The notes beneath the pieces are model-generated. The model did no database searches and was not told the DNA's origin. It saw only the letters and a program-made list of their open reading frames with translations. A DNA stretch of 64,000 bases from Desulfuromonadales bacterium (GTDB taxonomy: Bacteria > Desulfobacterota > Desulfuromonadia > Desulfuromonadales > JAHYIW01): the NCBI GenBank assembly GCA_029210745.1, contig JARGFI010000001.1, positions 1 to 64,000 on the forward strand, in the 5' to 3' direction. Below, in pieces: positions 2,440 to 39,509 of this stretch. Numbering within the stretch: the first letter of the stretch is position 1; the number at the start of each line of letters is the position of its first letter. The translations under genes and the position numbers were made by a program.

Positions 2440-2440
2440 T

Positions 2441-3605: not shown

Positions 3606-3619
3606 AAAATAATTTCACC

Positions 3620-6531: not shown

Positions 6532-6587
6532 CGCGCCTTTCCCGATCAAGGCGCGGCATACCGCCGTCATTCAGAAAGGACGCAGCG

Positions 6588-6998: not shown

Positions 6999-7114
6999 AC
7001 CAGGGCCGCGTTTCTTGCTCGATGTGACGGCCAGATCGTTTGAATCTTTTTGTTTGTTGGCCGGGGGTGTGCTACTTAAGGACTCACGTTTTTTTTATGT
7101 GAGGGGGTGTGAAA

Positions 7115-7438
7115 ATGACTTTGAGAACTTTTTGAAGACCGGTCAACTGAGTGAACACAGCGCCCACGCTGATGAGGTTCAACGTTGCTCGAAGCGGCCA
7201 GGCGCAATATCACTGATGCGAAAGTTGCGGCAATAAGTCTGGAGACTCGTTTTGACGTCGCCTATAAACGCGCATGGTGGTTCTGGACGCCCTGAGGCGC
7301 AAGCGAAACGTTGCCGATTATCTTGGCGGCTACGTCGATCAAACTGCTCTCGACAGTTGTATTGATGAAGCTGAATTATTGTTGAACGATGTCGAAGTCT
7401 GGATCGCCGAGCATCGAAAAGAACTCCTATCCTCGTGA
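7115..7438 (+). pseudogene. Degraded HEPN-domain-like small protein
   Basis: Protein pieces in different frames: ENFLKTGQLSEHSAHADEVQR / LLEAARRNITDAKVAAISLETRFDVAYK / MVVLDALRRKRNVADYLGGYVDQTALDSCIDEAELLLNDVEVWIAEHRKELLSS. Colinear with a known small HEPN-like family but with frameshifts and an apparent internal deletion. Confidence 0.7.
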
Positions 7439-8695
7439 ATGATAAGAAAGTCTATGCGTTTCATCCATACCTCCGATATTCATCTCGGCAAAACCTACCG
7501 CAACTCCCAAGGTGAAGCCGAACGCTACAATGACTTCTTCACCTGCCTGGACGGGATCGTCGCCGACGCCGTCAAAGAACAGGTCGATGCGGTGCTGATC
7601 GGCGGCGACCTGTTTCACGTCGGTCAGATTCTGCCGAAAACCTTCGCCAAAACCATCGCAGCACTGCAACCGCTCAAGGACGCCGCTATCCCCTGTATCG
7701 CCATTGAAGGCAACCACGACTGGATTCACCGCCGCGACAGCATCTCGTGGATGGAGGCGCTGTCGCAGATGGGCTACATCAAACTGTTGCGCCCGTCCCG
7801 CACCGAGGATGGCGGCTACCGCTTCGATAGATTTGATGAAGAGACCGGCAGGGGCGGACATATCGAGATCGGCGGTGTCAATATCTACGGTCTCGGTTAT
7901 ATCGGCGCGCAGGCGGGGAGCCATGTCGCGCGCATCTGTGACGCGGTGACGAGCGAACGTAACCTGTTACTGTTTCATGTCGGTATCTGGACCTTTTCGC
8001 CGGTGGAGATCGGCAATATGCAGCCGGATGAGTCGCACCCCCTGGCGGAAACGTTCAACTATGTGGCTCTCGGCCACGGACATAAGCCGTATATCGTCGC
8101 TACGCCGGAAGGCAACCCCTACGCCTATAATCCCGGTGCGCCGGAACGGGTCAATTTCGGCGAACAGAAGTATGCCAAAGGCTACTACCTGGTGACCGTC
8201 ACGGACGCTGATTTCTCCGCCGAGTTCAAACCGACAACACCCCGGCCGATGGTTGTTGCGACTGTCAATCTGGAAGGGGCGGGCAACGTCGAGGAGGCGC
8301 TGGAGCGGTTCACCGCCAAGGTCAGGGAAAATCTGCCGGAAGGAGACGCCCGGCGGCCGCTGCTGGAACTGAAGCTGGTCGGCAAGGTGGCTTTTCATCC
8401 CTTTGAACTGGGGCGAGAGCGCTTGCGGATCGCTATCCATGAAATCTCCGATCCACTGCATGTCGAGATCAAAAATCATCTGTCGATGGTCAGTCATTCC
8501 GGTGCGGGGGATATCTCCAGGAAGAGCCTGGAAGAAATCGAAAATGAAGTCCTGCACGATCTGATCAAGACCGGCAGCGACTATCAGGGGCGTGAGGAAG
8601 AGCTGATTCGACTTTCCATCGCCCTGAAAAACGCTGTCCAAAAGGGCGTCGATGGCGACGAGCTGCTCGCCATTCTTGATGCGCGGAGGGATTGA
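7439..8695 (+). CDS. Metallophosphoesterase, Mre11/SbcD-like nuclease
   Basis: MRFIHTSDIHLGKTYRN, IGGDLFH, EGNHDWIH, LGHGHKP phosphoesterase motifs; ATGA overlap with an SMC-like gene. Confidence 0.85.
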   Translation: MIRKSMRFIHTSDIHLGKTYRNSQGEAERYNDFFTCLDGIVADAVKEQVDAVLIGGDLFHVGQILPKTFAKTIAALQPLKDAAIPCIAIEGNHDWIHRRDSISWMEALSQMGYIKLLRPSRTEDGGYRFDRFDEETGRGGHIEIGGVNIYGLGYIGAQAGSHVARICDAVTSERNLLLFHVGIWTFSPVEIGNMQPDESHPLAETFNYVALGHGHKPYIVATPEGNPYAYNPGAPERVNFGEQKYAKGYYLVTVTDADFSAEFKPTTPRPMVVATVNLEGAGNVEEALERFTAKVRENLPEGDARRPLLELKLVGKVAFHPFELGRERLRIAIHEISDPLHVEIKNHLSMVSHSGAGDISRKSLEEIENEVLHDLIKTGSDYQGREEELIRLSIALKNAVQKGVDGDELLAILDARRD

Positions 8696-23673: not shown

Positions 23674-24756
23674 ATGAATCAAAAACCGGTCCTGGATGAA
23701 AAGTCTATGTCATCGCAACTGCAAAGTCACCATGAGCTGGAAGAAGAGCTGAAGAATATCAAGAGTATTCTGAGTGTCGCCCAGGTCGTTGTGTCGTCAC
23801 TTGACCTGGACGAGGTGCTGCAGAATATCCTTTTCAGCGCGATGAGTCTGATCGATGTTCCGGCCGGCAGTATTGCCCTGTATGATCGGGTTCGTAATGA
23901 GGTTGACATCCAGGTCCACTTCGGGTTCTCCGACAAATTTATTTCGAAATCGTATTGGCGAGTCAAGCCAGGCGGGCTGACCCATACGATTCTCAATGAG
24001 GGCAAAATCTTTGTCATTAATGACACGCATGATGCGCCCTATTTCAACAACCCTCTGGCCCTGAATGAGGGGATTCGTTCGCTGATTGCCATCCCTTTGA
24101 AGATCCAGGATTCAATCATCGGTATCCTGTATCTGGATGATTTTGTTCCCCGCAAGTTTGCTGAAAGTAAATTGCACCTGCTGTCTATTGTGACTTCGTT
24201 TGCAACGATGAGTATCGATAATGCCCGGATGCACGAACAGATGCGCTTGCAGGCCAGTACGGACGGTCTGACCGGGCTATATAACCATCGCCAGTTTGTC
24301 GAACTCTTTGATCGCGAAATGTCCCGCGCAAAACGCTTTCGCGTGCCTCTGTCGCTGCTGATGATTGATGTCGATCGATTTAAACTTTTCAATGACAAAT
24401 ATGGTCATCCGGTGGGCGATGAAGTATTGATACAGGTTGCGCGGCTGATCCGTGATACGGTACGTGAAGTTGATTTGTCTTTCCGCTACGGTGGAGAAGA
24501 GTTTATTGCCCTGCTCCCCGAAACCGATCTGGCCTCGGCCCGTCCGGTCGCTGAAAGAATTCGTCGCATTATCGAAGAAAATGCCGTTGCTTCAATCAGT
24601 GTTGTCCCCAACATGCCGGTAACCGTCAGTATTGGCGTTGCCAGCTACCCTCGCAACGGGACAAGTTGTGAAACGCTGCTGAAAGCCGTTGATGACCTGA
24701 TGTACCAGGCAAAAAGTCAGGGCCGTAATCTGGTCGTTCATCCCCCCAAGAAATAA
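23674..24756 (+). CDS. GAF-GGDEF diguanylate cyclase
   Basis: GAF region then STDGLTGLYNHRQF ... RYGGEEFIALLP. Confidence 0.9.
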   Translation: MNQKPVLDEKSMSSQLQSHHELEEELKNIKSILSVAQVVVSSLDLDEVLQNILFSAMSLIDVPAGSIALYDRVRNEVDIQVHFGFSDKFISKSYWRVKPGGLTHTILNEGKIFVINDTHDAPYFNNPLALNEGIRSLIAIPLKIQDSIIGILYLDDFVPRKFAESKLHLLSIVTSFATMSIDNARMHEQMRLQASTDGLTGLYNHRQFVELFDREMSRAKRFRVPLSLLMIDVDRFKLFNDKYGHPVGDEVLIQVARLIRDTVREVDLSFRYGGEEFIALLPETDLASARPVAERIRRIIEENAVASISVVPNMPVTVSIGVASYPRNGTSCETLLKAVDDLMYQAKSQGRNLVVHPPKK

Positions 24757-24764: not shown

Positions 24765-26129
24765 ATGTCTCAAGAAAAAATTCTGATTGTTGACGACGAA
24801 GAACGCATGTGTCGCCTGCTGCGCCGGGTTCTCGAAAAAGAGGGCTACCTCTGTCATACGGCAACCTCTGGTGGCGATGCTCTGGTTCGACTGGAACGCG
24901 ACGATTATGATCTGGTGATCACTGATATTCAGATGCCGGGGATGGACGGTCTGGAGTTGATCCGGGAGGTGCGCGATTACAACCCTGCGCTGCCGATTGT
25001 GGTGATCACCGCATACGGAACGGTTGAAAGCGCGGTTCAGGCACTGCGTGCCGGTGCCTACGATTATATCACCAAGCCATTTGAAAATGACGATATCCGT
25101 CACGCAGCCGCGCGTGCGCTGGAACGGGTGCGACTGCTGGCTGAAAATCGTTATCTGCACGAAGAGCTGGAGGGACGCTACCGCTACTCCGGAATCATCG
25201 GTACCTCACCCCTTATGCGCGCTGTTTTCGAAATGGCGTCATCGGTTGCGGCATCGAATGCCAACGTTCTGATTACCGGAGAAAGTGGCACCGGAAAGGA
25301 ACTGGTCGCCCGCTCCGTCCATTTCAACTCCCCGCGCCATGAACGTCCCTTTATTGTTTTAAACTGCGCCGCACTGCCGGAGAATTTACTTGAGAGTGAG
25401 TTGTTCGGCCATGAAAAAGGGGCTTTTACCGGGGCATTAAATGCTAAAAAGGGACGTTTCGAACTGGCTGATGAGGGGACGCTTTTTATTGACGAAGTCG
25501 GGGAGATGAGTCTTGCGGCACAAGTCAAACTGTTACGGGTGATTCAGGAGCAAGAGTTTGAACGGGTTGGCGGTTCCCGTGTCATAGCGTGCAATGTTCG
25601 CATTGTTGCCGCGACCAATAAAGATCTGGATACTGAAGTCAGGGCCGGCCGGTTTCGTGAAGACCTTTATTACCGGTTGAACGTGGTCAATATTCATCTG
25701 CCGTCATTGCGTGAGCGCCGCGAGGACATTGAACCGTTGGCGAAACATTTTCTCGACAAATTCAACCGTGAAATGGGCAAGAAGATTGAATCGATTGCCC
25801 CGCGGGCACTCAGTTGCCTGCTTGCCTATGAATGGCCGGGAAATGTTCGAGAACTGCAGAACGCTTTGGAGCGGGCCGTGGTCCTTGCCAAGGGAAATAT
25901 TATCACTCCGCGCGATCTGCCGGGAGGCGTTCAGTCTGAAAGTCAGATATGTCTGGAAGTACCCGAACATGGGTCGAATTTGACGGATATTCTAGAAGAT
26001 CTTGAGCGGCAACTGATTATCCAGACGTTGCGCCGCGAAGATGGTTCTCAAACCCGAACGGCTGATGCCCTGGGTATCAAGCGCACCACCTTACGTTACA
26101 AAATGGAAAAATACGGCATGCTCGACTGA
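24765..26129 (+). CDS. Sigma-54-dependent response regulator (NtrC family)
   Basis: Receiver ILIVDDEERMCRLL, AAA+ ITGESGTGKELVARSVH, GAFTGA loop, C-terminal Fis-type HTH. Confidence 0.93.
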   Translation: MSQEKILIVDDEERMCRLLRRVLEKEGYLCHTATSGGDALVRLERDDYDLVITDIQMPGMDGLELIREVRDYNPALPIVVITAYGTVESAVQALRAGAYDYITKPFENDDIRHAAARALERVRLLAENRYLHEELEGRYRYSGIIGTSPLMRAVFEMASSVAASNANVLITGESGTGKELVARSVHFNSPRHERPFIVLNCAALPENLLESELFGHEKGAFTGALNAKKGRFELADEGTLFIDEVGEMSLAAQVKLLRVIQEQEFERVGGSRVIACNVRIVAATNKDLDTEVRAGRFREDLYYRLNVVNIHLPSLRERREDIEPLAKHFLDKFNREMGKKIESIAPRALSCLLAYEWPGNVRELQNALERAVVLAKGNIITPRDLPGGVQSESQICLEVPEHGSNLTDILEDLERQLIIQTLRREDGSQTRTADALGIKRTTLRYKMEKYGMLD

Positions 26130-26367: not shown

Positions 26368-26457
26368 CCTTGGACGGGTAGGTGAATAGTTACGTGCTTG
26401 CTTGCGTCGATCATGTCCTGATGGGTTGTTCTGCCGAAATAACCCATGGTATAAAAA

Positions 26458-27567
26458 TTGCTCAGAATTAATTGTTCATATTTTCTATCTGCTCATGTCT
26501 CATTCTGGTTCATAGAATGCCGCGTGATTGACAAGGTCGTGAGAGTGATACTGCGATTTCTATCTATATTTGTTGTCGGGTTGATTGTTTTTTCAGGAGG
26601 TTGTCGTGAATTAACGTCTGACCGACTTTATGCACTTTATCTTGACCGTGATCCGGTAGTGGCGGACTGGGAGAGGGCTTTGCCGCGGACGGTTTATGTC
26701 AAGGGGGGGCAGCTGAATAAAGTGGAGAAAATTGGCGACATCGATCAGGATACGGTGCATACCTCTACTGCCTCGTGTCATCACGGCGCGGCTCTTCCGG
26801 ACCCGGTCGCCGTTGATCTGCGGGCATTTTATACTGACAATGACCTTTTTTTGCGGCTGAGCTGGAAAGATGCCACGCGCGATGAGGCTATTCGTGAGTG
26901 GTCTTTTGATGGACAAAAGTGGCATAGCAGTAATGCCGCAGAAGACGGTTTCGGCATTCTCTGGGATACCGTCGGATTAAACGATTTCAGCTGTTCCTAC
27001 GCCTGTCATATCGATGATTTCGGGGTCCAGGGCTCAAATTTTCATGCGCGCAACAAGATGAAGCTGGTCTCCGGAGATAGCCGACGTTTCGACCTCTGGA
27101 ACTGGAAAGCCCGGCGGACCGGCCATTTCGGTTTTGCCGATGATCGGATGATTGATGCGAACGGAATTCATCCAGATGCTTCAGGCGATATTTTTACCCC
27201 GAATTCTCACTCTGCGGCGCGTGCTGACGACACCGCCTTCGTTCCCGGAGACCGTCCGCTTTACGATGCCGAAGGACTGCCGATTGATCAGCAGTTTCAT
27301 GTCGCGGGAAGTCGTGCGCCGGGCTATTTGACCAGTCGACCAAGATCGGGAAGGGCTGATGTCGCTGCCTTTCAAGATTATGCCGACGGCCGCTGGACCG
27401 TTATTTTACGACGCAAACTGCAAACTGATGACGTGGATGATGTGATCTTCACTTCTGACAACGGGAGAGGGGTTGCATTTGGTTTGTCACTGATGGACAA
27501 TACCCTGTTTGAACACTATGCTTCGACAACCGCTGAACGTCTGGTGCTGTTGCCAAAAAAGCGCTGA
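26458..27567 (+). CDS. Lipoprotein/periplasmic haem-binding protein, ethylbenzene-dehydrogenase gamma-like (EB_dh / cytochrome c-552-type domain)
   Basis: DPVAVDLRAFYTDNDLFLRLSWKDATRDE...DGFGILWDTVGLNDFSCSYACHIDDFG...DLWNWKARRTG. Lipobox VFSGGC; GTG start at 26524 is possible. Confidence 0.7.
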   Translation: MLRINCSYFLSAHVSFWFIECRVIDKVVRVILRFLSIFVVGLIVFSGGCRELTSDRLYALYLDRDPVVADWERALPRTVYVKGGQLNKVEKIGDIDQDTVHTSTASCHHGAALPDPVAVDLRAFYTDNDLFLRLSWKDATRDEAIREWSFDGQKWHSSNAAEDGFGILWDTVGLNDFSCSYACHIDDFGVQGSNFHARNKMKLVSGDSRRFDLWNWKARRTGHFGFADDRMIDANGIHPDASGDIFTPNSHSAARADDTAFVPGDRPLYDAEGLPIDQQFHVAGSRAPGYLTSRPRSGRADVAAFQDYADGRWTVILRRKLQTDDVDDVIFTSDNGRGVAFGLSLMDNTLFEHYASTTAERLVLLPKKR

Positions 27568-27570
27568 TTT

Positions 27571-28335
27571 ATGGAGAAAAAGATGATTCGCTACCTGTTT
27601 GCCTCGCTGCTGGTCAGTCTCCTGACTCTTTCTGGATGTCAGAACGACGGAGGTTCTCAACCATCCCCCGCGACGACGTCCGCACTTCGTTCGGTGAGCG
27701 GAACAGTCGTTGCCCCGGTGGAAGGCACGACCATTTACGTTTACAAAAAAGGGATGGATCTGTATGGCCCGGCGTTTACTCTTTCCGAAGCAACTGGTGC
27801 AGACGGCAGTTTTGACCTTAAACTTCCCGCCGGTGATTACATCCTGGTGGCTCGAAAACGCCAGACGGGGGATGCCACGGGACCGGTTCTGGCGGGGGAC
27901 AACAAGAGTGAATTTATTAACTTGTCGGTTTCCAAAGATGTGACCCGATTGTCCATCCTTGCTCCTCTCAAGGTTGGTGATACCCGTCGCCTGACCGAGG
28001 ATACCCTGGTAACCAGGACCGGTATTTCCGGAACAATCTTCAATAGTGACAGGTTGCCAGTGGAGGCGGCCCGGGTCCATGTTTATGACCACGTCCAGAT
28101 GTCGGAGCGCCCTAAATTCGTTTCTGAAAAGACCGGACCGGACGGGCGTTATCTGATCTATCTTCCGGAGGGGGGAACCTATTATCTGGCGGCGCGCGAC
28201 AAGTTTGGTGGCCCGCCAAAACTCGGTGATCTTTATGGTCGTTACGATCAGGGAACGATCGAGCCTTCGGCAGTCATTGTCAAGGATGAAGAGTTATTGC
28301 AAAACGTCGATATTACTGTTCATAAGGTCTGGTAA
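27571..28335 (+). CDS. Lipoprotein with carboxypeptidase-regulatory-like (Ig-type) repeats
   Basis: Lipobox LTLSGC; GTVVAPVEGTTIYVYKKG...GSFDLKLPAGDYILVARKRQTGD...GRYLIYLPEGGTYYLAARDK. Confidence 0.6.
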   Translation: MEKKMIRYLFASLLVSLLTLSGCQNDGGSQPSPATTSALRSVSGTVVAPVEGTTIYVYKKGMDLYGPAFTLSEATGADGSFDLKLPAGDYILVARKRQTGDATGPVLAGDNKSEFINLSVSKDVTRLSILAPLKVGDTRRLTEDTLVTRTGISGTIFNSDRLPVEAARVHVYDHVQMSERPKFVSEKTGPDGRYLIYLPEGGTYYLAARDKFGGPPKLGDLYGRYDQGTIEPSAVIVKDEELLQNVDITVHKVW

Positions 28336-29234
28336 TGACACGGTATACGTTGTTATTCGTCATCATGTTCATCTTAAATGCTTGTGAACAACAGGAGCCG
28401 CTTGACCTTGCCGCCCTCGAAGGACGGGCGCGCAGTGGCGACCAGCAAGCGACTGAACAGCTGGTTACTCTCTTGGGACACACGGAGAACAACCTGAACA
28501 TGCAGGCTTACAAAATACTCCTCGATCTGGGGAAAAAGGCTGCGCCTGCGTTGATCAAAGAGATTGATTCCGACAGCAGTGAGCGTCGCGAACACGTCAT
28601 TGCCGCTCTCGGCACACTCCAGGTGCGTGCTGCGGTTCCGGAAATCAGCGCAGTATTGGCAAACACAAAATCAGGTCGCCGTTACATTGCCGCCTGGGCG
28701 CTCGGTGAAATTGCCGATCCTGCCGGGATTCCGGCATTGATTGCCGCGCTCGACGACCCTGATCACCAGGTGCGGCGCTACGCAACGCGTTCACTGATCA
28801 AGCTGAATCGCGCGGCTGTGCCCCCTCTGCTCGACGTATTGTCTGCCGGATCGGTGCGTGCCGTGGCCGGTGCCATTCGCGCATTGGGGGATATCGGCGA
28901 TCAACGCGCACTCGATGCGCTTTTGCAGCAGCTTTCCGGAGAACATCGCAGCGAGGCGATACTGGCTTTGGGGAAATTGAAGGATCGGCGTGCCGCCGCG
29001 GCGATGATCTCTGCGCTGGACGATCCCGACTGGCGTATTCGCATGAATGCGGCCATGGCTCTGGGACCGCTTGGCGGACCGGCGGCAGTCGAATCGTTGC
29101 GTAAAACCCTGGAGGATGAGGTTCGTGTCGTGCGCGAATGGTCCGCACGTTCACTCGAAATGATCACCGGCGAACATGTCCTTTATCGCAACAATGCCGG
29201 TGACTATGTCCCCCCTTACAATATCTATCACTGA
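28335..29234 (+). CDS. HEAT-repeat lipoprotein
   Basis: Lipobox LNAC; repeated units such as IPALIAALDDPDHQVRRYATRSLIKL and AAAMISALDDPDWRIRMNAAMALGPLG. Confidence 0.75.
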   Translation: MTRYTLLFVIMFILNACEQQEPLDLAALEGRARSGDQQATEQLVTLLGHTENNLNMQAYKILLDLGKKAAPALIKEIDSDSSERREHVIAALGTLQVRAAVPEISAVLANTKSGRRYIAAWALGEIADPAGIPALIAALDDPDHQVRRYATRSLIKLNRAAVPPLLDVLSAGSVRAVAGAIRALGDIGDQRALDALLQQLSGEHRSEAILALGKLKDRRAAAAMISALDDPDWRIRMNAAMALGPLGGPAAVESLRKTLEDEVRVVREWSARSLEMITGEHVLYRNNAGDYVPPYNIYH

Positions 29235-29249: not shown

Positions 29250-30743
29250 ATGAACAATCTTCTGGATGTGAAATTTGTCGGCCAGATCCTGCGCTCGCGC
29301 TGGAGCTGGCGGCTGCTGCGGCTGTCGCTGTTGTTGCTGTTGCTGTTGATTGCCGCCGCCGGGTGGCATCATCATACGATCCCCGGCCTGGAGGTCAAGG
29401 ACCCGTTGATGTATACCAATCTGGCGACTTACGGTTTTTGGGTCGTATGGATGATGGGGGTTGTTTTTATTGCACTTTTTTTCGGGCGTGCCTGGTGTTC
29501 GGTCTGTCCGCTTGGCTGGCTGAACGGTCTGGTTGCCCGCTCTGGCTTCAAGCTGACGCTGCCGCGCTGGATCAACAATTATGTGTCGGTGACAATCGTT
29601 CTGGTGCTGTTGCAGCTCATCGTCTACCTTTTCGCCATTCATCGTTATCCCGATTTTACTGCCTGGCTGATCGGCTTGATGCTGCTGTTGACCGTTTTTT
29701 CCGGAGCTTTTTTTCGGGGGCGGGCGTTCTGCAAGCTGCTTTGTCCCGCTGGCGCAGTCTTCGGGCTCTACGCGCGGATTGCACCATTCAGCCTGCGGGT
29801 CAAGGACGAACCTACCTGTGCCGGCTGTGATACGCGTGCCTGCGTGTCCGGTGGGCGTTTCTGGAAAAAAATTTCCCTCGGACGGGCGGTCGGTTACTGG
29901 CACGCCGAACGTGATGCATGTCCGGTCGATTTGTTTCCTGCCGAGCTGCGCGATGATTCCGGCTGCACCCTGTGTCTGGGCTGTCTGCAGAACTGTGATC
30001 GTGACAATATGCGGCTGGGGTTCAGGCCATGGCTGGCAGAATTAGGCAAAGACCGTCTGGCCCTGACCGAAGGACTTTTTTTGCTGGTTTTGCTCGGTAT
30101 GTTGACGGCCAATTTCAGCAAAGTCAATGTTGATCTGCGCGAGTTGATTTTCTGGTTGCCGGAACAGGTCGCGCAACTGCTCGGTTGGCAGGCGGGGGGG
30201 TACAATCTCCTCGCGGTCCTTTGGATAACTCTCGGCTTGCCGCTGTTATTAACGGTTCCCGGTTGGCTGGTGATGCGCCTTGCCGAGACAAACTTTTCAC
30301 CGGTTCCCCGGCCTGACCCTCCGACGGGGCAACAGCTTGATGTCACTGCGGGCTGGTGGCAATCGTTTCGCCGTCTGGCATTACCCTATATCCCGCTGTT
30401 ATTGGCCGCTCACGCTATTCTGGCTTTGGTTAAGTTGAATGCCAAGGGGGGGTATCTACCGCTGGTTCTCGGTGATCCCTCCGGTGTCAAAAGCTATCTG
30501 GCGATCAACATCATGACGACGGTCACTCCTCCCGGAGTCGTGGTGTCACTCGATCTGCTTAAATGGGTCGTATTGCTCTTACTCATTGCGGGCTATGCTG
30601 TCTCTTTAATTGCCGCGCAAAGAGTTGCTCTCGACCGGACCGGGGCAATCCGCTGGGGATATTTTTTTGGTGCGGCAACGGGGGTAACGCTGGTCGCCGC
30701 GCTCTATCTTGCGACCATTATCGTCTGGCTCTTTATTCGTTGA
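29250..30743 (+). CDS. Polytopic membrane 4Fe-4S protein, NapH/NosR-like
   Basis: GRAWCSVCPLGW, GRAFCKLLCPAGAVFG, CAGCDTRACVSG, CTLCLGCLQNCDRDN, with multiple TM segments. Confidence 0.78.
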   Translation: MNNLLDVKFVGQILRSRWSWRLLRLSLLLLLLLIAAAGWHHHTIPGLEVKDPLMYTNLATYGFWVVWMMGVVFIALFFGRAWCSVCPLGWLNGLVARSGFKLTLPRWINNYVSVTIVLVLLQLIVYLFAIHRYPDFTAWLIGLMLLLTVFSGAFFRGRAFCKLLCPAGAVFGLYARIAPFSLRVKDEPTCAGCDTRACVSGGRFWKKISLGRAVGYWHAERDACPVDLFPAELRDDSGCTLCLGCLQNCDRDNMRLGFRPWLAELGKDRLALTEGLFLLVLLGMLTANFSKVNVDLRELIFWLPEQVAQLLGWQAGGYNLLAVLWITLGLPLLLTVPGWLVMRLAETNFSPVPRPDPPTGQQLDVTAGWWQSFRRLALPYIPLLLAAHAILALVKLNAKGGYLPLVLGDPSGVKSYLAINIMTTVTPPGVVVSLDLLKWVVLLLLIAGYAVSLIAAQRVALDRTGAIRWGYFFGAATGVTLVAALYLATIIVWLFIR

Positions 30744-30744
30744 T

Positions 30745-31209
30745 ATGAAGACACTGCTTATATTGATCTCCCTCATCTGTGCTCTGACCGCACCGACCGA
30801 TGCCTGCTTCGGGCCCAAACTGTATCTGGGGGTTCCCTCCGGTCCGGCGGGAGAGCTGCAACACGCACTGATATCAATCTATCTCAAGGAAAAGACCGGC
30901 ACAGAGGTTGACGCGGTGATTATCGATCAGGATCCGCGCGTATTGATCGGCAATGAGCAGATTGATTTTGCTTTTGTCACTCCGCGAGAAAACGAGACAG
31001 CGCTGTTGGTTCTCTCTGCCGACGCGGTTCTTCTGGCGGGCAAACGCATCTTGGCAACGCTTCAGTTCACCACCACAATTCCGGCGCTGGCCAAACTGGG
31101 GCAACAGTTACAACCGCAGCACTATGCGCAGCTCCTTGAGCAGGTCAGGCAGGGAGCCGCTCCACTGGCGCTGGTACGGCAGTTCTATTTCGACCAGGGG
31201 TGGATTTGA
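30745..31209 (+). CDS. Small secreted protein resembling one lobe of a periplasmic binding protein
   Basis: Signal peptide, GPKLYLGVPSGPAGELQHALISIYLKEKTGTEVDAVIID...; 154 aa. Confidence 0.45.
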   Translation: MKTLLILISLICALTAPTDACFGPKLYLGVPSGPAGELQHALISIYLKEKTGTEVDAVIIDQDPRVLIGNEQIDFAFVTPRENETALLVLSADAVLLAGKRILATLQFTTTIPALAKLGQQLQPQHYAQLLEQVRQGAAPLALVRQFYFDQGWI

Positions 31210-31213
31210 TCCC

Positions 31214-32032
31214 ATGCTTCGTCTTCTGGCCATACTGCTTTTTATAATTTCTCTGGCGGGATGCACCCCCCGTTTGCGACCTTTTGCCGACGTGCCGGAT
31301 ATGCAGACGTTGCCACGATATTCAGGCACCCTGACCGGCATAACCGAGTGGCGTGATGAGCTGTTGATAGATGGCGACGTGCGCATTCCGACCGGCAGTC
31401 AGCTGATTATTCATCCGGGAACCAGAATCTACATCCGTGCCGCGCAGGGGACAAAGATCGACCCGGAGTTTCTCTCATCCGCGACGGAGCTGCTCATCCA
31501 GGGGGAATTGAGAATATCCGGCTCAATGGCACAGCCGGTGGTATTTACTCCGTTTGAAGTGCCCGATGGAACCGATTACGGCTGGGCCGGGATCGAACTG
31601 CTCGGTGCGACGCGATCGCAGATTGTCGGTACCGAGCTCCGCAATGCCGAAACCGGAATTCTCTGCGTCAATTCTTCCCCGCTGATTAAGGATAACCATC
31701 TAAGTGGTTGTCGCTACGGCATTATTGCTCAGCTCGGGAGTGCACCGGTGATCCGCGATAATCTTATTGAAAGCGGGGAAGGGGGGATTTTTTGCTGGCG
31801 TTCCAGTGCGCCTGTCCTGGCTGGCAATCGCATCACCGGCCAGCAGGAAGAGGGTATTCATATCGACGCCGACAGTATGCCAACCTTGCATGCAAACATC
31901 ATCAGCAATAACGACATCGGGATATATCTTGGTTCCCGCAATGTTCCGTACCCGCATATCCAGTTCAATGCCAACCGGGTCGATGTCCACCTGTCGCGTG
32001 CATTGACAGATGCAGTAACGGTCGATCGATGA
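31214..32032 (+). CDS. Right-handed beta-helix (NosD-like) lipoprotein
   Basis: Lipobox SLAGC; repeats LIKDNHLSGCRYGIIAQLGSAPVIRDNLIESGEGGIFCWRSSAPVLAGNRITG. Confidence 0.7.
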   Translation: MLRLLAILLFIISLAGCTPRLRPFADVPDMQTLPRYSGTLTGITEWRDELLIDGDVRIPTGSQLIIHPGTRIYIRAAQGTKIDPEFLSSATELLIQGELRISGSMAQPVVFTPFEVPDGTDYGWAGIELLGATRSQIVGTELRNAETGILCVNSSPLIKDNHLSGCRYGIIAQLGSAPVIRDNLIESGEGGIFCWRSSAPVLAGNRITGQQEEGIHIDADSMPTLHANIISNNDIGIYLGSRNVPYPHIQFNANRVDVHLSRALTDAVTVDR

Positions 32033-33123
32033 AACTATTGCTCTTGGTTGTTTATCTGTGTTTGATCCCTCTGCCGATTCTGGCGCAGGATGGTTCGTTG
32101 TCCTATCGGGGTGAGAATACCCTCTACCGTGACACTGTCTGGCAGGGAGAGGTCACGATTGACGGAATCCTGACGGTTGCACCTGGCATCACGCTGGAAA
32201 TTCGCCCTGGAACCGTCGTTTCTTTCACTTTTTCTGACAGTAACCATGATCGTATCGGCGAACATGAACTGTTTATTCAGGGAACGTTGCGGGCGATGGG
32301 AACCGCCGCCGCCCCTGTTGTGTTCACTTCGGCCCAGGCACAACCTCATCCCGGTGACTGGGGGGCGATCAACATGATGGCGACCGAAACCGAAAGTTTG
32401 TTCGAACATTGCAAGATCGAATATGCCTACCGCGGTTTTCATGCCCACTTTTCACGGGCGCGATTACGTGATACTGAATTGAGCAACAATCTTCGCGCCG
32501 GACAATTCCAGGAATCAACGGTGGCGATTGAACGCTGTAAAATCCTTGATAACTTTAACGGAATTCAGTTTCGCGACTCGACGGTAAGGATTGCTGACAG
32601 CGTTATTAACGGCAATCTCTGGGGGGCCCGCTGCGTCTACAGCACGGTAACAATGGAAGATTGCCTGATTGAAAATAACCTGATCAATGGCTTGAACTTT
32701 CGCGGGTCCGAGGTGTCGTTACGCCGCAATCTGGTTCGCAATAACCGCAAGGGGATCTATCTTCAGGCATCCCGGGCCGTTGTGGTTCACAACCGGATTG
32801 AGGGAAACAGTGAACATGGCATTCTTCTTGAAAAAACAAGCGGAGTGGTCAACGCCAATCTCATCACCGGTCAGGGGCGAGCGGGGGTCAAGGTGGTCAA
32901 TTCCACAGCGGTACTGTCCGAAAATGCAATGATCTCCAACGGCGAATATGCGCTGATAAATGAAGGCTCCGACAGTTTCAGTGCTCAACACAACTGGTGG
33001 GGTAACGTTGAACCAGCCTCCATTGAATTGCTGATTCGGGACCGTAACGATCGTCCGGCGGTTGGTAGCGTGGATGTTTCACTGCCATTGAACATTCATC
33101 CTGAAATCACTTTTGAAAGGTAA
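32029..33123 (+). CDS. Right-handed beta-helix (NosD-like) periplasmic protein
   Basis: Signal peptide; repeats IADSVINGNLWGARCVYSTVTMEDCLIENNLINGLNFRGSEVSLRRNLVRNNRKGIYLQASRAVVVHNRIEGN. Confidence 0.72.
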   Translation: MKLLLLVVYLCLIPLPILAQDGSLSYRGENTLYRDTVWQGEVTIDGILTVAPGITLEIRPGTVVSFTFSDSNHDRIGEHELFIQGTLRAMGTAAAPVVFTSAQAQPHPGDWGAINMMATETESLFEHCKIEYAYRGFHAHFSRARLRDTELSNNLRAGQFQESTVAIERCKILDNFNGIQFRDSTVRIADSVINGNLWGARCVYSTVTMEDCLIENNLINGLNFRGSEVSLRRNLVRNNRKGIYLQASRAVVVHNRIEGNSEHGILLEKTSGVVNANLITGQGRAGVKVVNSTAVLSENAMISNGEYALINEGSDSFSAQHNWWGNVEPASIELLIRDRNDRPAVGSVDVSLPLNIHPEITFER

Positions 33124-33126
33124 ATT

Positions 33127-34035
33127 GTGTCATTGTTGCGCTATCTATTGATCGCCGGATTACTGGTCGTCATCTCTTTGCCTTTGTCTGGCTGCGAGCA
33201 GGCGGGCGAACGTCAAAAAATGAAGATTGGTTACATGAACTGCAACAGCGAGGCAGAGACCCGCGCCCGTTTTCTCCCGCTGACAGCTTACTTGAGTCAT
33301 TACACCGGAATCGATTTTGAGGCGGTACCGGTTGATACCCACGAATTTGCAGAACGTTATGCGCAAGGCGAATTTGCTTTAACCCATTCGAATTCACTCC
33401 TTTACGTTCAACTTAAATTCGATCATGAGCTGCAACTTCTGGCGGCTGAAAAACGGGGGAACTTCGGTTCGCGCAGTGCCGGAACAATTATTGCCCGCAA
33501 AGGCAGCGGCATTGAAAAATTGACTGACCTTAAAGGCAAGCGCATGGTCTTCGGTCCGATGATGGCACCGACCGGATATCTGGCTCAATACGACCTGATG
33601 TTGCGCAGCGGGATCGATCCGGAGCGTGACCTGGCCTATTACGCAATCCCTTCCGGGTCGTTTAAACACGAAAAACTGGTTTATGGTGTCTATTTTGGTG
33701 CGTTTGATGTTGCCGCCGCTCCTTTGCTCGACCTGGAAGTGATGACTCGCGAAGGTAAAATTACCGCCGATGATTTTGTGATTTTGGGACAAAGTCCACT
33801 GGTACCGTATTGCACCTTCGGTGCAGCGGCCAAACTCGTCCCCGCAGTGGTTGAAAAAGTGCGCCGGGCCTTACTCGAACTGACCCCGGAGACAACTGTT
33901 GATATTGCCGGGGAGCGCGTCAAAGTTTTGAAATCCGCCTGGATCGATGGTTTTGAAGCTTTGCGCGACGCCGACTACGATGTCGTCCGTGACATGGCCA
34001 GGCGGGTTAACATGCCCCCCTATCAGGAGTATTAA
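33127..34035 (+). CDS. PhnD-like phosphate/phosphite/phosphonate-type substrate-binding lipoprotein
   Basis: Lipobox LSGC; KIGYMNCNSEAETRARFLPLTAYLSHYTGIDFEAVPVDTHEF...GTIIARKGSGIEKLTDLKGKRMVFG; PhnD fold pattern. Confidence 0.78.
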   Translation: MSLLRYLLIAGLLVVISLPLSGCEQAGERQKMKIGYMNCNSEAETRARFLPLTAYLSHYTGIDFEAVPVDTHEFAERYAQGEFALTHSNSLLYVQLKFDHELQLLAAEKRGNFGSRSAGTIIARKGSGIEKLTDLKGKRMVFGPMMAPTGYLAQYDLMLRSGIDPERDLAYYAIPSGSFKHEKLVYGVYFGAFDVAAAPLLDLEVMTREGKITADDFVILGQSPLVPYCTFGAAAKLVPAVVEKVRRALLELTPETTVDIAGERVKVLKSAWIDGFEALRDADYDVVRDMARRVNMPPYQEY

Positions 34036-34038
34036 GCA

Positions 34039-34578
34039 GTGTTTGTTGATCGTTATGATCGTCTCTTATGGGCCGTGTTTATTTTGCTCTTGATCGCCAT
34101 AGCGACAACGACTGCATATTCCCTGCAAGGAAGCGCTTATGTGACGCAACATAATGATCGCAATCTCGCACGCAAAATGATCGAGCGGGCACGCCTTGAC
34201 TATCTTGCAGACCTTTACGCGCCGGTGACCGCAGCACTGGAGTCTGGTGATTATTCGCATGCTCTGTTGGCGTTGGGGGAGGTTCAACGCTCCTTCCCGG
34301 ACGAAGCGTATGGTCAGGTGCTTAAGGGCGTGATACTCAGCAAGATGGGAGCCATCGATGCCGCGCTGGAAAGTCTGGCCGCCGGGATAAAGCGGGATGG
34401 CAATTATATTGATCGCAACGGTTCGCTTTCTTATCGCGAAACGGTAGCAGCGCTGGTCGTAAATCAATTACCCCTCTACGCCGCGCGAGTGGCAAACGAT
34501 GCCGGGGATACGATCGCTTTAACGTCCAAACGTCATCTGCATTATCTGCAAAGTCGTTTGGCGGGCGGATGTGAATAA
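34039..34578 (+). CDS. Membrane-anchored hypothetical protein with TPR-like segment
   Basis: N-terminal TM; YSHALLALGEVQRSFPDEAYGQVLKGVILSKMGAIDAALESLAAGI. Confidence 0.45.
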   Translation: MFVDRYDRLLWAVFILLLIAIATTTAYSLQGSAYVTQHNDRNLARKMIERARLDYLADLYAPVTAALESGDYSHALLALGEVQRSFPDEAYGQVLKGVILSKMGAIDAALESLAAGIKRDGNYIDRNGSLSYRETVAALVVNQLPLYAARVANDAGDTIALTSKRHLHYLQSRLAGGCE

Positions 34579-34581: not shown

Positions 34582-35646
34582 ATGAACTGGCGCGATCGAC
34601 ATTTATGGCTGGTCATTCTGGCCGGTGGTGTTTTCGGTGTACTCGGCGTCATGCTGTCCGTATGGGGCAACCCGGCCAATTCCGGAATCTGTGTTTCCTG
34701 TTTTCTTGAAAACAGTGTCGGTGCGCTCGGTTTTCATGATAATGACCGGATGCAGTATCTGCGGCCGGAGCTGCCGGGATTTGTGCTCGGTGCAACCGTG
34801 AGTGCGTTAATCGGTCGGGAGTTCGTCGCGCGTGGCGGTGGGGCACCGTTACCACGCATCGTAGCCGGAATTCTGCTGATGATCGGCTGCGCGATCTTTA
34901 TCGGTTGTCCGATAAAACTTTTTTTGCGACTCTCCGCCGGTGATTTAACCGCGCTGGCCGGGGTTGCCGGTCTAATATGCGGTGTCTGGATCGGTTTGCA
35001 GGGGCTTGGTCATGGCGTTTCTTTCGGTCAGCCACTGAAAGAGCGGGGAACCGGCTGGATCACACCACTGTTTTTTTTGGCACTTTTGGCCGCATTTTTT
35101 GTGCGTCCCGGATTTTTGCTCTTTTCCGAGCGCGGCAGTGCGTCATTACATGCTCCCTGGTTTCTTTCCCTGGGGGCAGGTCTGGTTCTCGGCGGGCTTG
35201 CCCAACGAACCCGCTTCTGTATTACCGGGGGGATTCGGGACGGGCTGATTTTGGGGCGGCGGGCACCGTTGTTGTGGGGCGGAATAGCCTTTATCATCAG
35301 CGCATTTTTGTTCAGTATCCTTGTCGGTCGCTTCAACGTTGGCTGGCTCGGTCAACCGGGCGCGCACCTCGAAACGGTCTGGAATTTTACCGGGATGCTG
35401 CTGGTGGGAATTGTCTCGGCGCTGATCGGTGGTTGTCCGCTGCGTCAGCTGATCAAATCGGGGGAAGGGGACACTGATGCGGGGCTGGTGGTTATTGGTA
35501 TGCTGATCGGTGCGGCATTGGTGCAAGCCTGGGGAATTACGGCAACAGCCGCAGGGGTTCCGAGTGACGGAAAAATTGCAGTACTTACCGGTCTGGCACT
35601 GACGGTTTTATCGATGCTGCTGTTTCGTGAACGTGAGACAGAATAG
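34582..35646 (+). CDS. YedE-type putative selenium/sulfur transporter
   Basis: GVFGVLGVMLSVWGNPANSGICVSCFLENSVGALGFHDNDRMQYLRPELPGFVLGATVSALIGREFVARGG...FIGCPIKLFLRLSAGDLTALAGVAGLICG matches seleno-YedE proteins as I know them. Confidence 0.78.
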   Translation: MNWRDRHLWLVILAGGVFGVLGVMLSVWGNPANSGICVSCFLENSVGALGFHDNDRMQYLRPELPGFVLGATVSALIGREFVARGGGAPLPRIVAGILLMIGCAIFIGCPIKLFLRLSAGDLTALAGVAGLICGVWIGLQGLGHGVSFGQPLKERGTGWITPLFFLALLAAFFVRPGFLLFSERGSASLHAPWFLSLGAGLVLGGLAQRTRFCITGGIRDGLILGRRAPLLWGGIAFIISAFLFSILVGRFNVGWLGQPGAHLETVWNFTGMLLVGIVSALIGGCPLRQLIKSGEGDTDAGLVVIGMLIGAALVQAWGITATAAGVPSDGKIAVLTGLALTVLSMLLFRERETE

Positions 35647-35653: not shown

Positions 35654-35980
35654 ATGGATTATTTTACGCAACGACCACTGAGAAACAGCGATATCGTCTG
35701 GCGCCGGGAACAACGCAAGGAGGAACGGGTGTTGCGGGCCCTGGAGGAAGGTGAGGCGGTGGATGAGCAAGGCACCGTTCTGCTCGTGGTGTCCGGGACC
35801 ATGCATCAGTTGAATCTTGTCGGCGGGATGATCTGGTGTTTATGTGACGGGACCCGCACGGTTGACGAGATCACCGCACAACTTGCCGACGAATTTTCCG
35901 TTTCCCGTGACGAACTGGAGAGTGATGTCCGTGAATTTTTTGATGAATTACAGCAACGAGGATGGCTGAGTTATGTTTGA
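35654..35980 (+). CDS. PqqD-like peptide-chaperone (RRE) protein, GeoRSP-type
   Basis: MHQLNLVGGMIWCLCDGTRTVDEITAQLADEFSVSRDELESDVREFFDELQQRGWL PqqD pattern; overlaps the radical SAM gene by 8 nt. Confidence 0.8.
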   Translation: MDYFTQRPLRNSDIVWRREQRKEERVLRALEEGEAVDEQGTVLLVVSGTMHQLNLVGGMIWCLCDGTRTVDEITAQLADEFSVSRDELESDVREFFDELQQRGWLSYV

Positions 35981-36977
35981 CAACTTTACCGATCTGTTTT
36001 CCGCGCCACTGACAATCAACTGGACGTTATCGTTTCGCTGTAATTTCAGTTGCAGCCATTGCTATAGCCGTGATGAACAGGTTGCAGAACTGGAAACCGC
36101 TGATGTTAAAAAGATCATTGATATTCTCGTTGCTAAAAAGATTCCGTTTATCAACTTTGGTGGCGGGGAACCACTGATTCGCGAGGATCTGTTTGTGATT
36201 GCCGCCTATGCGACAGCCCAAGGGCTCAATGTTTCGATGAATTCAAACGGATCTTTGCTCGACGAATCAGCCGCGACACGGCTGCTCAAGAGCGGATTCA
36301 AAAGTGTGGGGATCAGTATCGACAGTGCTGATCCCGCCTTGCATGATGATTTCAGGAATATGCCCGGCTCATTCGAAAAAGCCGTTGCTGCCTTGAGGGT
36401 ATTGCAGAACGTCGGGTTGAAACGGACCATGAGTTCGGTTATCTCACGAATCAATTTTCAACACTTCCACGAACTGCTCGATCTGGCACGTCGCTACGAG
36501 GTGGCGCAGGTTTACCTGCATAACTTCAAGTGCAGCGGTCGTGGCTTTAAAAATCGGGAGGACCTTGATCTGACCCCCGCTGAGTGGAAAACATTCTATG
36601 TCGAGGCGTTGCGTGTCAAGCAACAAACGCATGATCTGGCGATTTCTTTCGACGATCCGGTCATCTCTTCCCTGCCGGGGTATGACACCGATCCACTGGT
36701 CAACGGAAGCAGCTGCGGAAAACTCTCATTGAATTTACGACCGAATGGTGATTTGACCCCCTGCGGATTTATTCCGCTCACTGTCGGCAATATTTTGCAC
36801 GACGATTTTGATGAAATATGGTACAATTCCCCTGTACTTAACCAGATGAGAAATAAACGCGCCGGAGGTAAATGTCTCGATTGTGGCTCTTATGAAGCCT
36901 GTCAGGGGGGGTGTACGGCGCGATCTTATGCGGTAACCGGGGATTTCAATCAACCCGATCCCCATTGCTGGAAATAA
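35973..36977 (+). CDS. Radical SAM/SPASM peptide maturase, GeoRSP-type
   Basis: CNFSCSHCYS (CxxxCxxC), FGGGEPLI, C-terminal SPASM cysteines CLDCGSYEACQGGCTARS. Confidence 0.85.
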   Translation: MFDNFTDLFSAPLTINWTLSFRCNFSCSHCYSRDEQVAELETADVKKIIDILVAKKIPFINFGGGEPLIREDLFVIAAYATAQGLNVSMNSNGSLLDESAATRLLKSGFKSVGISIDSADPALHDDFRNMPGSFEKAVAALRVLQNVGLKRTMSSVISRINFQHFHELLDLARRYEVAQVYLHNFKCSGRGFKNREDLDLTPAEWKTFYVEALRVKQQTHDLAISFDDPVISSLPGYDTDPLVNGSSCGKLSLNLRPNGDLTPCGFIPLTVGNILHDDFDEIWYNSPVLNQMRNKRAGGKCLDCGSYEACQGGCTARSYAVTGDFNQPDPHCWK

Positions 36978-37015
36978 TACATGACCTGTCAATCAACAAC
37001 CAAGGAGGTTAAAAC

Positions 37016-37072
37016 ATGAAAAAGTATCTGAAACCCCGTATTGTCGGTTCCTCGAATGTTCATCCCTGCTGA
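37016..37072 (+). CDS. Candidate 18-residue RiPP precursor peptide MKKYLKPRIVGSSNVHPC
   Basis: Not in the supplied ORF track (too short). AAGGAGGT Shine-Dalgarno just upstream of ATG; sits between radical SAM and SPASM genes; terminator immediately after the stop codon. Confidence 0.7.
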   Translation: MKKYLKPRIVGSSNVHPC

Positions 37073-37081
37073 ACCGATCAG

Positions 37082-37106
37082 GGGGGCAGTCTTCTGCCCC
37101 CTTTTT
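37082..37106 (+). terminator. Rho-independent terminator after the short peptide ORF
   Basis: GGGGGCAG-TCTT-CTGCCCCC-TTTTT. Confidence 0.85.
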
Positions 37107-37119
37107 CTTTAGACTCTTT

Positions 37120-38061
37120 ATGCCTCTCGATCTTCTTGACACCCCGATCCGCGCTACCTGGACACTGAGTTCAGACGCCAGCCCCCCCGCTGACGAAGTT
37201 GTCTCTACCATCACGCAGCAACTGATCGCCGCCGGTGTCTTTTATTTACTGCTTCAGCCCCCCTCCCTCAAACATCCTGCCTGTCGAGCGGTTTTGCATG
37301 ACCTGGCCGCGGGCGGGTGCCAGACGGAAATTATCTGCTGTGGGAACGAAGATGAATTGCTGGTTCTTGAAGAGCGCCCATTGCAACATGTCGGACTGTG
37401 GCTTGATGTCACCCGGTTTCTTGCCGATGAAATTGACATTGACCCACTGAAATGTGTTGTACAACGCTTGCGACAATCGGGATTAAACCCGGGGTTATTA
37501 TGTCCTCCGGTACGTCAACATCTGCTGAAAATCCCGCAACTTATCAATCTTTGTGAGATGCTTGAGATAGCGCGATTTAAGTTGCCAAATATAGGTATCG
37601 ATGTTACTTATCAAAGCTCAGATCGCGTTCAGCTGCCACGCTCCGAAGACCTCGCCGCGTTAAAAAAAATGCTCAAAAATACCTGGCAGGCTCCTCCACA
37701 ACTGCGGCTGGAAATACATGATCTGTTTCTCTGGGAGTTACTGGTTCCTGATGCTGCTCAGGGACGCGAGGAGTACGGTGGCTGCCAGGCAGCGAACAGT
37801 CTGGTCCACATCACCTCGCAAGGCGATGTCTACCCCTGTATCTCCTGGCCGGAAAAGCTCGGCTCCTTGTTGACTGAAGATCTTGGCGATATCTGGGAGT
37901 CGGAACAAAGATTACGTATTCGCAGAGAAATCGCGCACGTTCCGTCAGGGTGTAATGGTTGTTTGATTGTCGATGACTGCCATGGTGGCTGCCGTGGTCT
38001 GTCGAGAATATTCAATAAAGAACTGAGACAGCGCGATTTGCTCTGTTCCGGGAAACGTTGA
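37120..38061 (+). CDS. SPASM-domain protein lacking radical-SAM CxxxCxxC (GeoRSP-type second protein)
   Basis: C-terminal CISWPEKLGSLLTEDLGDIW...CNGCLIVDDCHGGCRG; N-terminal half resembles a TIM-barrel without CxxxCxxC. Confidence 0.75.
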   Translation: MPLDLLDTPIRATWTLSSDASPPADEVVSTITQQLIAAGVFYLLLQPPSLKHPACRAVLHDLAAGGCQTEIICCGNEDELLVLEERPLQHVGLWLDVTRFLADEIDIDPLKCVVQRLRQSGLNPGLLCPPVRQHLLKIPQLINLCEMLEIARFKLPNIGIDVTYQSSDRVQLPRSEDLAALKKMLKNTWQAPPQLRLEIHDLFLWELLVPDAAQGREEYGGCQAANSLVHITSQGDVYPCISWPEKLGSLLTEDLGDIWESEQRLRIRREIAHVPSGCNGCLIVDDCHGGCRGLSRIFNKELRQRDLLCSGKR

Positions 38062-38077: not shown

Positions 38078-39223
38078 ATGTCAATTTATCTCGACAATTC
38101 AGCGACTTCGCACCCAAAACCTGAGACTGTTTACAGGGCGGTGGATCATGCTCTGAGAGAAATCGGAGCCAACCCCGGTCGAGGTGGGCATCGTCTCGCC
38201 CTGGCCGCGGCGCGACTTGTTTATAATGTTCGTGAATCTGTCGCCAGTTTTTTTGCCGTTGCCGACCCTTCACGGATCATCTTTACTGCGAATGCGACCG
38301 AGGCGATCAATCTCGCGCTCTTTGGTTTGCTCGTGCCCGGTGATCGGGTGGTTACGACCACCATGGAACACAACGCCATGGTGCGTCCGCTGGCGCAACT
38401 GGAGATGCGTGGCATTGAAGTCGTCAAGGTGCAGGCCGATCAGCAAGGGTATGTCGATCCAGACGCTATCTTTGCCGCCTGTGCAAAGCCGACCCGGTTG
38501 GTAGCGCTCAGTCACTGCTCCAACGTCAGTGGCACCGTTCAGTCGATCGAAAAGATCGGTCCCTGGTGCCGGGAAAACGGGGTGACTTTTCTGGTTGATG
38601 CAGCGCAAAGCGCGGGTTTGATCGCGATTGATGTCGAGCAGATGGCGATTGACTTGTTGGCGGTTCCTGGCCATAAATCTTTGCTGGGACCACCAGGAAC
38701 CGGTTTTCTCTATATTCACCCCGATCTGCAACTTCAACCGCTGTTGTTCGGTGGTACCGGCAGCAACTCGACCAGCAAATTTCCCGCAGACACGCTGCCG
38801 GAACGGTTTGAAGTCGGAACGATGAACGTTGCGGGGATCGCCGGACTGGGTGCGGCGATTGAATTTTTGCAGCAGGAAACGCTGCAAAAAATCTTTGCAC
38901 ATGAAGATGCATTGATGACATCACTGCGGGGCACGCTGTCGGCCATTGACCGAGTCTCCCTTTATGCACCGCTATCTGCCCGGCACGTCGGACCATTGTC
39001 TTTCAATATCGACGGTCTCGATCCGGCGGAAGTCGGTTTTTTACTTGAGAAAGATCATGAAATTTGTGTGCGGGTCGGGTTGCACTGCGCCCCTGAAGCA
39101 CATCGTTCGCTTGGTACCTTCCCCCAGGGTACGGTACGCGTCAGCCCAGGCTATTTCACGACCCGAAACGAGATCGATATTCTGATCGAGGCGATAAAGT
39201 CTCTCGCCGGAAACAAACAATAA
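38078..39223 (+). CDS. Cysteine desulfurase family protein (class V aminotransferase)
   Basis: IYLDNSATSHPKPETVYRAV...TANATEAINLALFGL...VDAAQSAGLIAIDVEQMAIDLLAVPGHKSLLGPPGTGFLYI; C-terminal CVRVGLHCAPEAH. Confidence 0.88.
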   Translation: MSIYLDNSATSHPKPETVYRAVDHALREIGANPGRGGHRLALAAARLVYNVRESVASFFAVADPSRIIFTANATEAINLALFGLLVPGDRVVTTTMEHNAMVRPLAQLEMRGIEVVKVQADQQGYVDPDAIFAACAKPTRLVALSHCSNVSGTVQSIEKIGPWCRENGVTFLVDAAQSAGLIAIDVEQMAIDLLAVPGHKSLLGPPGTGFLYIHPDLQLQPLLFGGTGSNSTSKFPADTLPERFEVGTMNVAGIAGLGAAIEFLQQETLQKIFAHEDALMTSLRGTLSAIDRVSLYAPLSARHVGPLSFNIDGLDPAEVGFLLEKDHEICVRVGLHCAPEAHRSLGTFPQGTVRVSPGYFTTRNEIDILIEAIKSLAGNKQ

Positions 39224-39233: not shown

Positions 39234-39509
39234 ATGATGAGAAAACTTGTCTGGTTGTTTATTGTCATCACGCTGTTCGCCTGTTCATTAAAACCCTTGA
39301 GGGTGGTAACACGAGCAGACCTCAGTAAGCACCGCCTTTTTCAGCGTTATGTCATTGAAGAGTCCCCCGAACAAGTCCTGGATGCATTGAATACGTATGG
39401 CGAGGCGGTTCTGACGACCAGAATGAATATCCCGAACCGTAATCTCCCGGTGCATGTCAAGATACTGGCCACCAGTGACGGCCTTGAAGTTATGGAATAT
39501 GATCGTTGA
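39234..39509 (+). CDS. Small lipoprotein, unknown function
   Basis: Lipobox TLFAC; 91 aa. Confidence 0.5.
   Translation: MMRKLVWLFIVITLFACSLKPLRVVTRADLSKHRLFQRYVIEESPEQVLDALNTYGEAVLTTRMNIPNRNLPVHVKILATSDGLEVMEYDR

Follow-up and report, generated by a model that had tools for sequence, protein, structure and literature searches.

The peptide gene and the locus around it

The window, i.e. the whole 64,000-nucleotide stretch of DNA analysed here, carries on its forward strand a very short open reading frame that encodes the 18-residue peptide MKKYLKPRIVGSSNVHPC (37016-37072, +; ATG at 37016, TGA at 37070-37072). Its codons are ATG AAA AAG TAT CTG AAA CCC CGT ATT GTC GGT TCC TCG AAT GTT CAT CCC TGC TGA, and we presume MKKYLKPRIV to be the leader and GSSNVHPC the core. 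The ORF lies 38 nt downstream of a GeoRSP radical SAM/SPASM maturase gene (35973-36977, +) and upstream of a gene for a second SPASM protein (37120-38061, +). A Shine-Dalgarno sequence, AAGGAGGT, is located at 37002-37009 (+) with a spacing of 6 nt to the ATG, and AGGAG-type ribosome sites of this kind precede nearly all copies of the peptide gene. Between the peptide stop and the SPASM gene there is a GC-rich hairpin with a T-run (37080-37107, +); the 10-bp hairpin spans 37080-37103, has a folding energy of -21.6 kcal/mol (z = -4.4 versus shuffles) and begins 7 nt past the stop. We infer that it is likely to be a terminator, perhaps a partial one, that would raise the level of the peptide over that of the downstream enzymes. 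Terminator-like sites are found within 80 nt of 18/31 cassette copies and 48/76 remote copies of the gene, as opposed to 15/150 control genes. A first-pass annotation of the window had described the ORF, its ideal Shine-Dalgarno sequence, the hairpin with T-run and the placement between a radical SAM/SPASM gene and a second SPASM gene; all of these held, with the hairpin spacing, given there as 9 nt, corrected.

The radical SAM enzyme passes the equivalog cut-off of its family (TIGR04303, 432.1 bits, cut-off 400). According to the alignment it retains CxxxCxxC and the full set of SPASM cysteines; its nearest solved structure is PqqE (6c8v) and its next-best family scores are to the heme-modifying AhbD/NirJ and the mycofactocin (MftC) maturases. 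The preceding gene (35654-35980, +) encodes a PqqD-family peptide chaperone that is predicted to bind the leader in trans. TIGR04302 is its best family, and with 95.1 bits it is a near miss on the cut-off of 100 (Pfam PqqD, 69 bits). In the synthesis of PQQ, PqqD is the separate leader-binding partner that PqqE requires (PMC8326336). The best family of the second SPASM protein is TIGR04304, yet its score, 108.6 bits, is far under the cut-off of 300; CxxxCxxC is absent while the SPASM cysteines are retained. As the radical-SAM cysteines are missing and the best fold matches of the AF2 model (pLDDT 84) are PqqE and SuiB, this protein is likely, as predicted by the model, to be a degenerate radical-SAM barrel that serves as a non-catalytic partner subunit. 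We refer to the PqqD and SPASM proteins as a divergent GeoRSP-like branch because their scores are under the cut-offs while synteny and fold agree. The GeoRSP arrangement proposed in the first-pass annotation is refined accordingly.

The cassette is preceded by a YedE-type permease gene (34582-35646, +; TIGR04112, 386 bits), and the SPASM gene is followed by genes for a cysteine-desulfurase family protein (38078-39223, +; TIGR01977, 436 bits, above 377), the position of which is conserved in Desulfuromonadales GeoRSP loci, and a small lipoprotein-like protein that is conserved in the cassette (39234-39509, +). Synteny and score both place the permease in a separate, GeoRSP-specific subtype, as the full-length YedE genes of GeoRSP loci score approximately 340-418 bits versus 475-491 bits in GeoRSP-negative genomes. 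Further upstream is an extracytoplasmic block (29250-34578, +) of a Fer4_5 membrane ferredoxin, a small substrate-binding protein, two NosD-like beta-helix proteins, a PhnD-like binding protein and a TPR protein. The operon probably starts near 26458 with an ethylbenzene-dehydrogenase-type heme b lipoprotein, followed by a carboxypeptidase-regulatory-like lipoprotein and a HEAT-repeat lipoprotein (26458-29234, +). A sigma-54-like -24/-12 site, TGGTATAAAAATTGCT, is found at 26447-26462 (+), but a consensus match alone is weak evidence. The gene of a sigma-54-dependent response regulator (24765-26129), itself preceded by a GAF-GGDEF gene (23674-24756), stands before this site.

In Desulfuromonadales the gene order is small binding protein, two NosD-like proteins, PhnD-like binding protein, TPR protein, YedE, PqqD, radical SAM enzyme, peptide, SPASM protein, cysteine desulfurase and small lipoprotein. 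This synteny is fixed over 38 loci, and its core is retained in Geobacter and Nitrospirota, the loci of which add, in varying combinations, ResB-like, ArsP-type permease, cupin, FmdE, NikR, CbiM or NicO genes.

A conserved peptide family that co-occurs with the GeoRSP enzyme

Members of the family were sought with a DNA pattern for the C-terminus of the peptide, and the reversed motif was used as control. In the genomes examined, 174 distinct copies encoding 93 distinct peptides of 17-20 aa (17, 18 or 20 residues) were recovered, and the reversed motif had no match. The family consensus is MKK(xx)YxKPxVVG[ST]xxVHPC. All recovered peptides end in His-Pro-Cys-stop, with the His and Cys invariant across the copies. 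Note that K-P and H-P-C were set by the first motif. The Tyr (92 of the 93 distinct peptides) and the Ser/Thr at -7 were not imposed by the motif at such strength, the constraint on the Val/Ile at -10 was only loose, and the cassette copies that were picked purely as ORFs lying between the radical SAM and SPASM genes have the HPC end in all cases. The pN/pS ratio is 0.15 among cassette copies and 0.14 among remote copies (range given, 0.14-0.25), i.e. the family is under strong purifying selection. The first Ser of the core is encoded by TCN in 31/31 cassette copies and by AGY in 76/76 remote copies; these codon families are more than one step apart, therefore two old gene lineages encode the same residue. 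Thr is found at this position in copies from Nitrospirota and Deferrisomatales.

The genome of the window contains two further copies, MKKYLKPKVVGSSNVHPC, on other contigs. Both are 89%-identical paralogs with a CxxCH cytochrome gene upstream and a terminator-like hairpin of their own downstream. Another protein match in the same genome, at C96 (41% identity, E approximately 1), has no start or RBS context and was judged to be a chance match. No Pfam or NCBIfam family matched the peptide when it was scanned against these libraries, and the find is wider than first described.

The peptide and the GeoRSP radical SAM enzyme co-occur across Desulfuromonadia and Nitrospirota. A first set of relatives had the peptide in 38/38 GeoRSP-positive genomes (35 with a full GeoRSP radical SAM gene and 3 with a fragment) and in 1/60 negatives. 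In these relatives the gap between the radical SAM and SPASM genes holds the peptide; where, in a few loci, this space is lacking, the peptide is encoded elsewhere in the genome. The first-pass annotation had named a lack of amino-acid conservation beside homologous cassettes as an outcome that would refute it; this test was run and failed to refute. Within the order of the window, 57 of 136 genomes contain the tight motif, and since two paralogs are present in the own genome and no reversed match was found, the ORF is far above chance. The order is split almost perfectly by the enzyme: the tight motif is present in 53/53 genomes with the GeoRSP radical SAM gene versus 4/83 without it, the latter four all being fragmentary MAGs. 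Class-wide (277 genomes), the peptide gene was found in 86/88 genomes with the GeoRSP enzyme, and the tight motif in 4/189 negatives, every one a fragmentary MAG. For the part of the class outside the order of the window a looser motif was used (Y-x-x-P-x-[VI]-x5-[VI]-H-P-C-stop), which detected the peptide in 25/27 remaining positives versus 1/33 negatives, with no match to the reversed pattern. The motifs used found no peptide in two GeoRSP-positive genomes, G209 and G253.

The distribution is patchy within genera, e.g. G022 has both enzyme and peptide while its congeners G002 and G034 have neither. Scanned in one genome per species, the motif is also present in at least Nitrospirota and other groups. 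When 27 further genomes, mostly outside the order of the window, were picked by the peptide alone, the radical SAM gene was found in 24 of them (it passes the cut-off in 21, narrowly misses it in 2 and is a split gene in 1). A match in Phycisphaerae (L214/G152) was not accepted as a true member. It is probably a contaminant contig of a MAG, because its HD-peptide-BaxI unit is Desulfuromonadales-like and there is no GeoRSP radical SAM gene in that genome.

Remote copies beside multiheme cytochromes

The genomes contain one cassette copy and several remote copies without a nearby maturase, the latter preferentially downstream of multiheme cytochrome genes. The remote set consists of 72 fetched regions with 81 copies, one region being a GeoRSP-negative control without a copy. 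In these 72 regions no PqqD, radical SAM or SPASM relatives of the window's system were found beside the remote copies, therefore the maturase must act in trans. From co-occurrence and gene layout we infer that one maturase locus serves several scattered precursor genes.

For 39/81 remote copies the immediately preceding gene contains 5 or more CxxCH heme motifs (up to 87), as opposed to 4/329 genes taken from random regions of five such genomes. The Fisher p value of 2.6e-27 overstates independence, since copies and genomes are related by descent. For five more remote copies the upstream gene is a contig-edge fragment with CxxCH. The domains of the upstream cytochromes are of the Cytochrome_C7, MtrC/MtrF-like and Geobacter CxxxxCH/CxxCH types. 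Other partners are FG-GAP/UnbV-type proteins (upstream of at least 11 copies), an HD-domain gene upstream combined with a BaxI-like gene downstream (4 copies), and rhodanese. In many genomes the remote copy begins 10-90 nt past the cytochrome or FG-GAP gene. One Nitrospirota genome (L191, L302) has its maturase block bordered on either side, within a single contig, by a unit of multiheme cytochrome and peptide. The description of the peptide as a gene of the cassette is hereby refined: the cassette copy is one of several per genome, and the others accompany multiheme cytochromes and further proteins, most of which are extracytoplasmic.

There are a few further observations on these regions. 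In L120 a 2089-aa cytochrome (1835-8104), which bears 87 CxxCH motifs and has an F5/8 type C domain at its C-terminus, is directly upstream of a peptide copy. In L126 and L127 a protein of 616-623 aa is downstream of the peptide copy; the one in L126, which was scanned, has both a NosD-like beta-helix and a PQQ-type beta-propeller. Three regions of one family (L104, L106 and L108) have an FG-GAP-peptide unit near a 55-56% relative of the window's Fer4_5 membrane ferredoxin, and the cassettes of the same genomes (L042, L055 and L056) are without a peptide copy. Peptide copies of one Geobacter and one Nitrospirota genome (L219, L228) adjoin genes that appear, on a reading of the sequence only, to encode B12-binding-type radical SAM proteins. 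A sigma-54 site was rejected as the shared promoter of the remote copies, as it was found in only 4/15 first-in-operon copies, all of one genus, and in the window. A block, TGGTTTGTTTTTTGCA / GCCGTGAAAAGAAGTA / CGTTTTATCACCG, occurs about 150 nt upstream of first-in-operon peptide copies of one genus (L160, L162, L165 and L166) and suggests a common promoter or operator.

Proposed function, rival readings and known systems

We consider it very likely that the GeoRSP radical-SAM RiPP system has the 18-mer as its precursor peptide. This is inferred from sequence alone, without expression, translation or mass data; the gene meets what is expected of a RiPP precursor, i.e. it is a short ORF beside a maturase, conserved at the amino-acid level and co-occurring with the maturase. 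The RiPP-precursor reading of the first-pass annotation is supported by conservation and co-occurrence, while high expression, translation and modification are inferred only. The division into a short leader and a core ending in Cys, which it proposed, is likewise presumed. One point against the precursor reading is that 17-20 aa would imply an unusually short leader.

According to the mechanism we propose, the peptide would be made in excess, given the strong RBS and the hairpin between it and the downstream enzymes. The PqqD-like protein would bind the KxY-x-KP leader and pass the peptide to the radical SAM/SPASM enzyme, which the SAM-less SPASM partner would assist; the conserved N-terminal Y-x-KP is compatible with a leader role, but there are no binding data. 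The enzyme would then modify the invariant SxxVHPC end, most likely through its Cys or through His-Pro-Cys as a unit (a thioether or other cross-link), and the product, either a cofactor (redox or metal-binding) or a maturation factor, may serve the extracytoplasmic electron-transfer modules whose operons bear the remote copies. Leader removal is unexplained because no peptidase for it was identified among the cassette genes; a housekeeping protease is not excluded. Our confidence differs between the parts of this scheme, the chemistry and product of which are inferred. We regard the reading as a whole (a GeoRSP precursor, modified in its C-terminal core, with a function in extracytoplasmic electron transfer) as likely, and infer that the modification probably falls in the C-terminal VHPC region. 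That any specific modification chemistry we could name is correct is unlikely, and the action of the product in extracytoplasmic electron transfer is an inference that we hold with slightly more doubt than belief. The role may not be tied to cytochromes alone, because the partners include FG-GAP proteins, the HD-domain/BaxI pair and rhodanese. A bolder reading, which is possible, is that the peptide gives rise to a new cofactor, PQQ- or mycofactocin-like in kind, of metal-respiring bacteria of several phyla. One trans-acting GeoRSP set would then serve several precursor genes, each of them sharing an operon with a giant multiheme cytochrome or with another extracytoplasmic electron-transfer module.

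The main rival, on account of the transport genes, is that the product handles metals or chalcogens (as a metallophore, a metal-site or a sulfur/selenium carrier), with its free C-terminal His-Pro-Cys binding the metal that the locus transports. This is possible: the locus has a YedE-type permease, a cysteine desulfurase, NosD-like beta-helix proteins and two binding proteins, Geobacter and Nitrospirota loci add NikR, CbiM, NicO, a cupin and an ArsP-type permease, and the terminal His and Cys never vary. However, the Ni/Co genes are present in some loci only, the YedE/desulfurase pair varies between branches, and a cytochrome precedes the remote copies much more often than it does background genes, which a metallophore alone would not predict. 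It is somewhat less probable that the peptide, activated by the radical-SAM step, helps particular exported proteins, namely giant multiheme cytochromes and FG-GAP proteins, to mature or dock, with its own copy in each operon. The short distance of remote copies from these genes, the ResB-like protein of Geobacter and Nitrospirota loci and the scores of the radical SAM enzyme to AhbD/NirJ and mycofactocin maturases would fit, but there is no cytochrome beside the cassette copy in the window, the HD-domain and BaxI partners are not exported, and the near-identical core in all copies disfavours partner-specific docking.

A regulatory leader or signalling peptide could be suspected from the very short ORF and the terminator-like, attenuator-like hairpin directly after it, but we think this very unlikely: the amino acids are conserved across Ser codon families and phyla, many copies have no downstream gene to attenuate, and the co-occurrence with the radical SAM gene is near-perfect. 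Finally, the TGA could be read as selenocysteine and the hairpin as a SECIS element, so that a longer peptide with Cys-Sec would be made beside a selenium transporter; in its favour, a YedE-type permease adjoins and the hairpin in the window is right past TGC TGA. The hairpin carries a terminator T-run, however, and over the 174 copies TAA (68) and TAG (10) replace TGA (96) at the same codon position, therefore this reading is ruled out to all intents and purposes.

Returning to the precursor reading, the general features of the system can be compared with those of known ones. With GeoRSP (TIGR04302 PqqD, TIGR04303 radical SAM, TIGR04304 SPASM) the window shares the three-protein cassette, the gene order and a radical SAM enzyme over the cut-off; the NCBIfam models found cover the three enzymes only, none matches the peptide, and the window's PqqD and SPASM proteins are under the curated cut-offs. 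The PQQ system (PqqA/PqqD/PqqE) is similar in as much as it has a tiny precursor, a separate PqqD partner and, in PqqE, the closest solved radical SAM relative (PMC8326336). The differences are that the PqqA core is Glu/Tyr as opposed to SxxVHPC, that the window's system has many scattered precursor genes and an extra SAM-less SPASM partner, and that no PqqB/C/F was seen in the locus. Mycofactocin (MftA/MftB/MftC), the product of which is a redox cofactor (PMC8326336), also derives from the C-terminal core of a short peptide by means of an RRE-type partner and a radical SAM/SPASM enzyme, and the MftC family is among the best secondary matches of our enzyme. On the other hand, the window's core is without the Val-Tyr end, no glycosylation or peptidase genes were seen, and the precursors are scattered near cytochromes. 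The sactipeptide and ranthipeptide maturases (SkfB, CteB) are likewise radical SAM enzymes with a SPASM or twitch domain that act on Cys-containing peptides, and SkfB is among the structure matches; here, in contrast, the peptide has a single, C-terminal Cys, PqqD is separate, and no export or toxin genes were seen.

The GeoRSP enzymes were thus already known from library models, but no model or paper that we found names their substrate. The precursor family, the layout of one maturase with many precursors and the linkage to cytochromes appear to be new, as they are in no library or open-access paper found. Our search of the open-access literature on GeoRSP and the peptide gave nothing relevant, and subscription papers were mostly outside its scope, so an earlier description is not fully excluded. 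If our inference is right, as is very likely, the substrate family of GeoRSP has been identified; it can be searched for with a one-line motif, and the enzymes become directly testable. The protein parts list of extracellular electron transfer had been taken to consist mainly of cytochromes and porins. The dispersed precursors beside giant cytochromes of electroactive bacteria suggest that this process may have an unrecognised peptide component.
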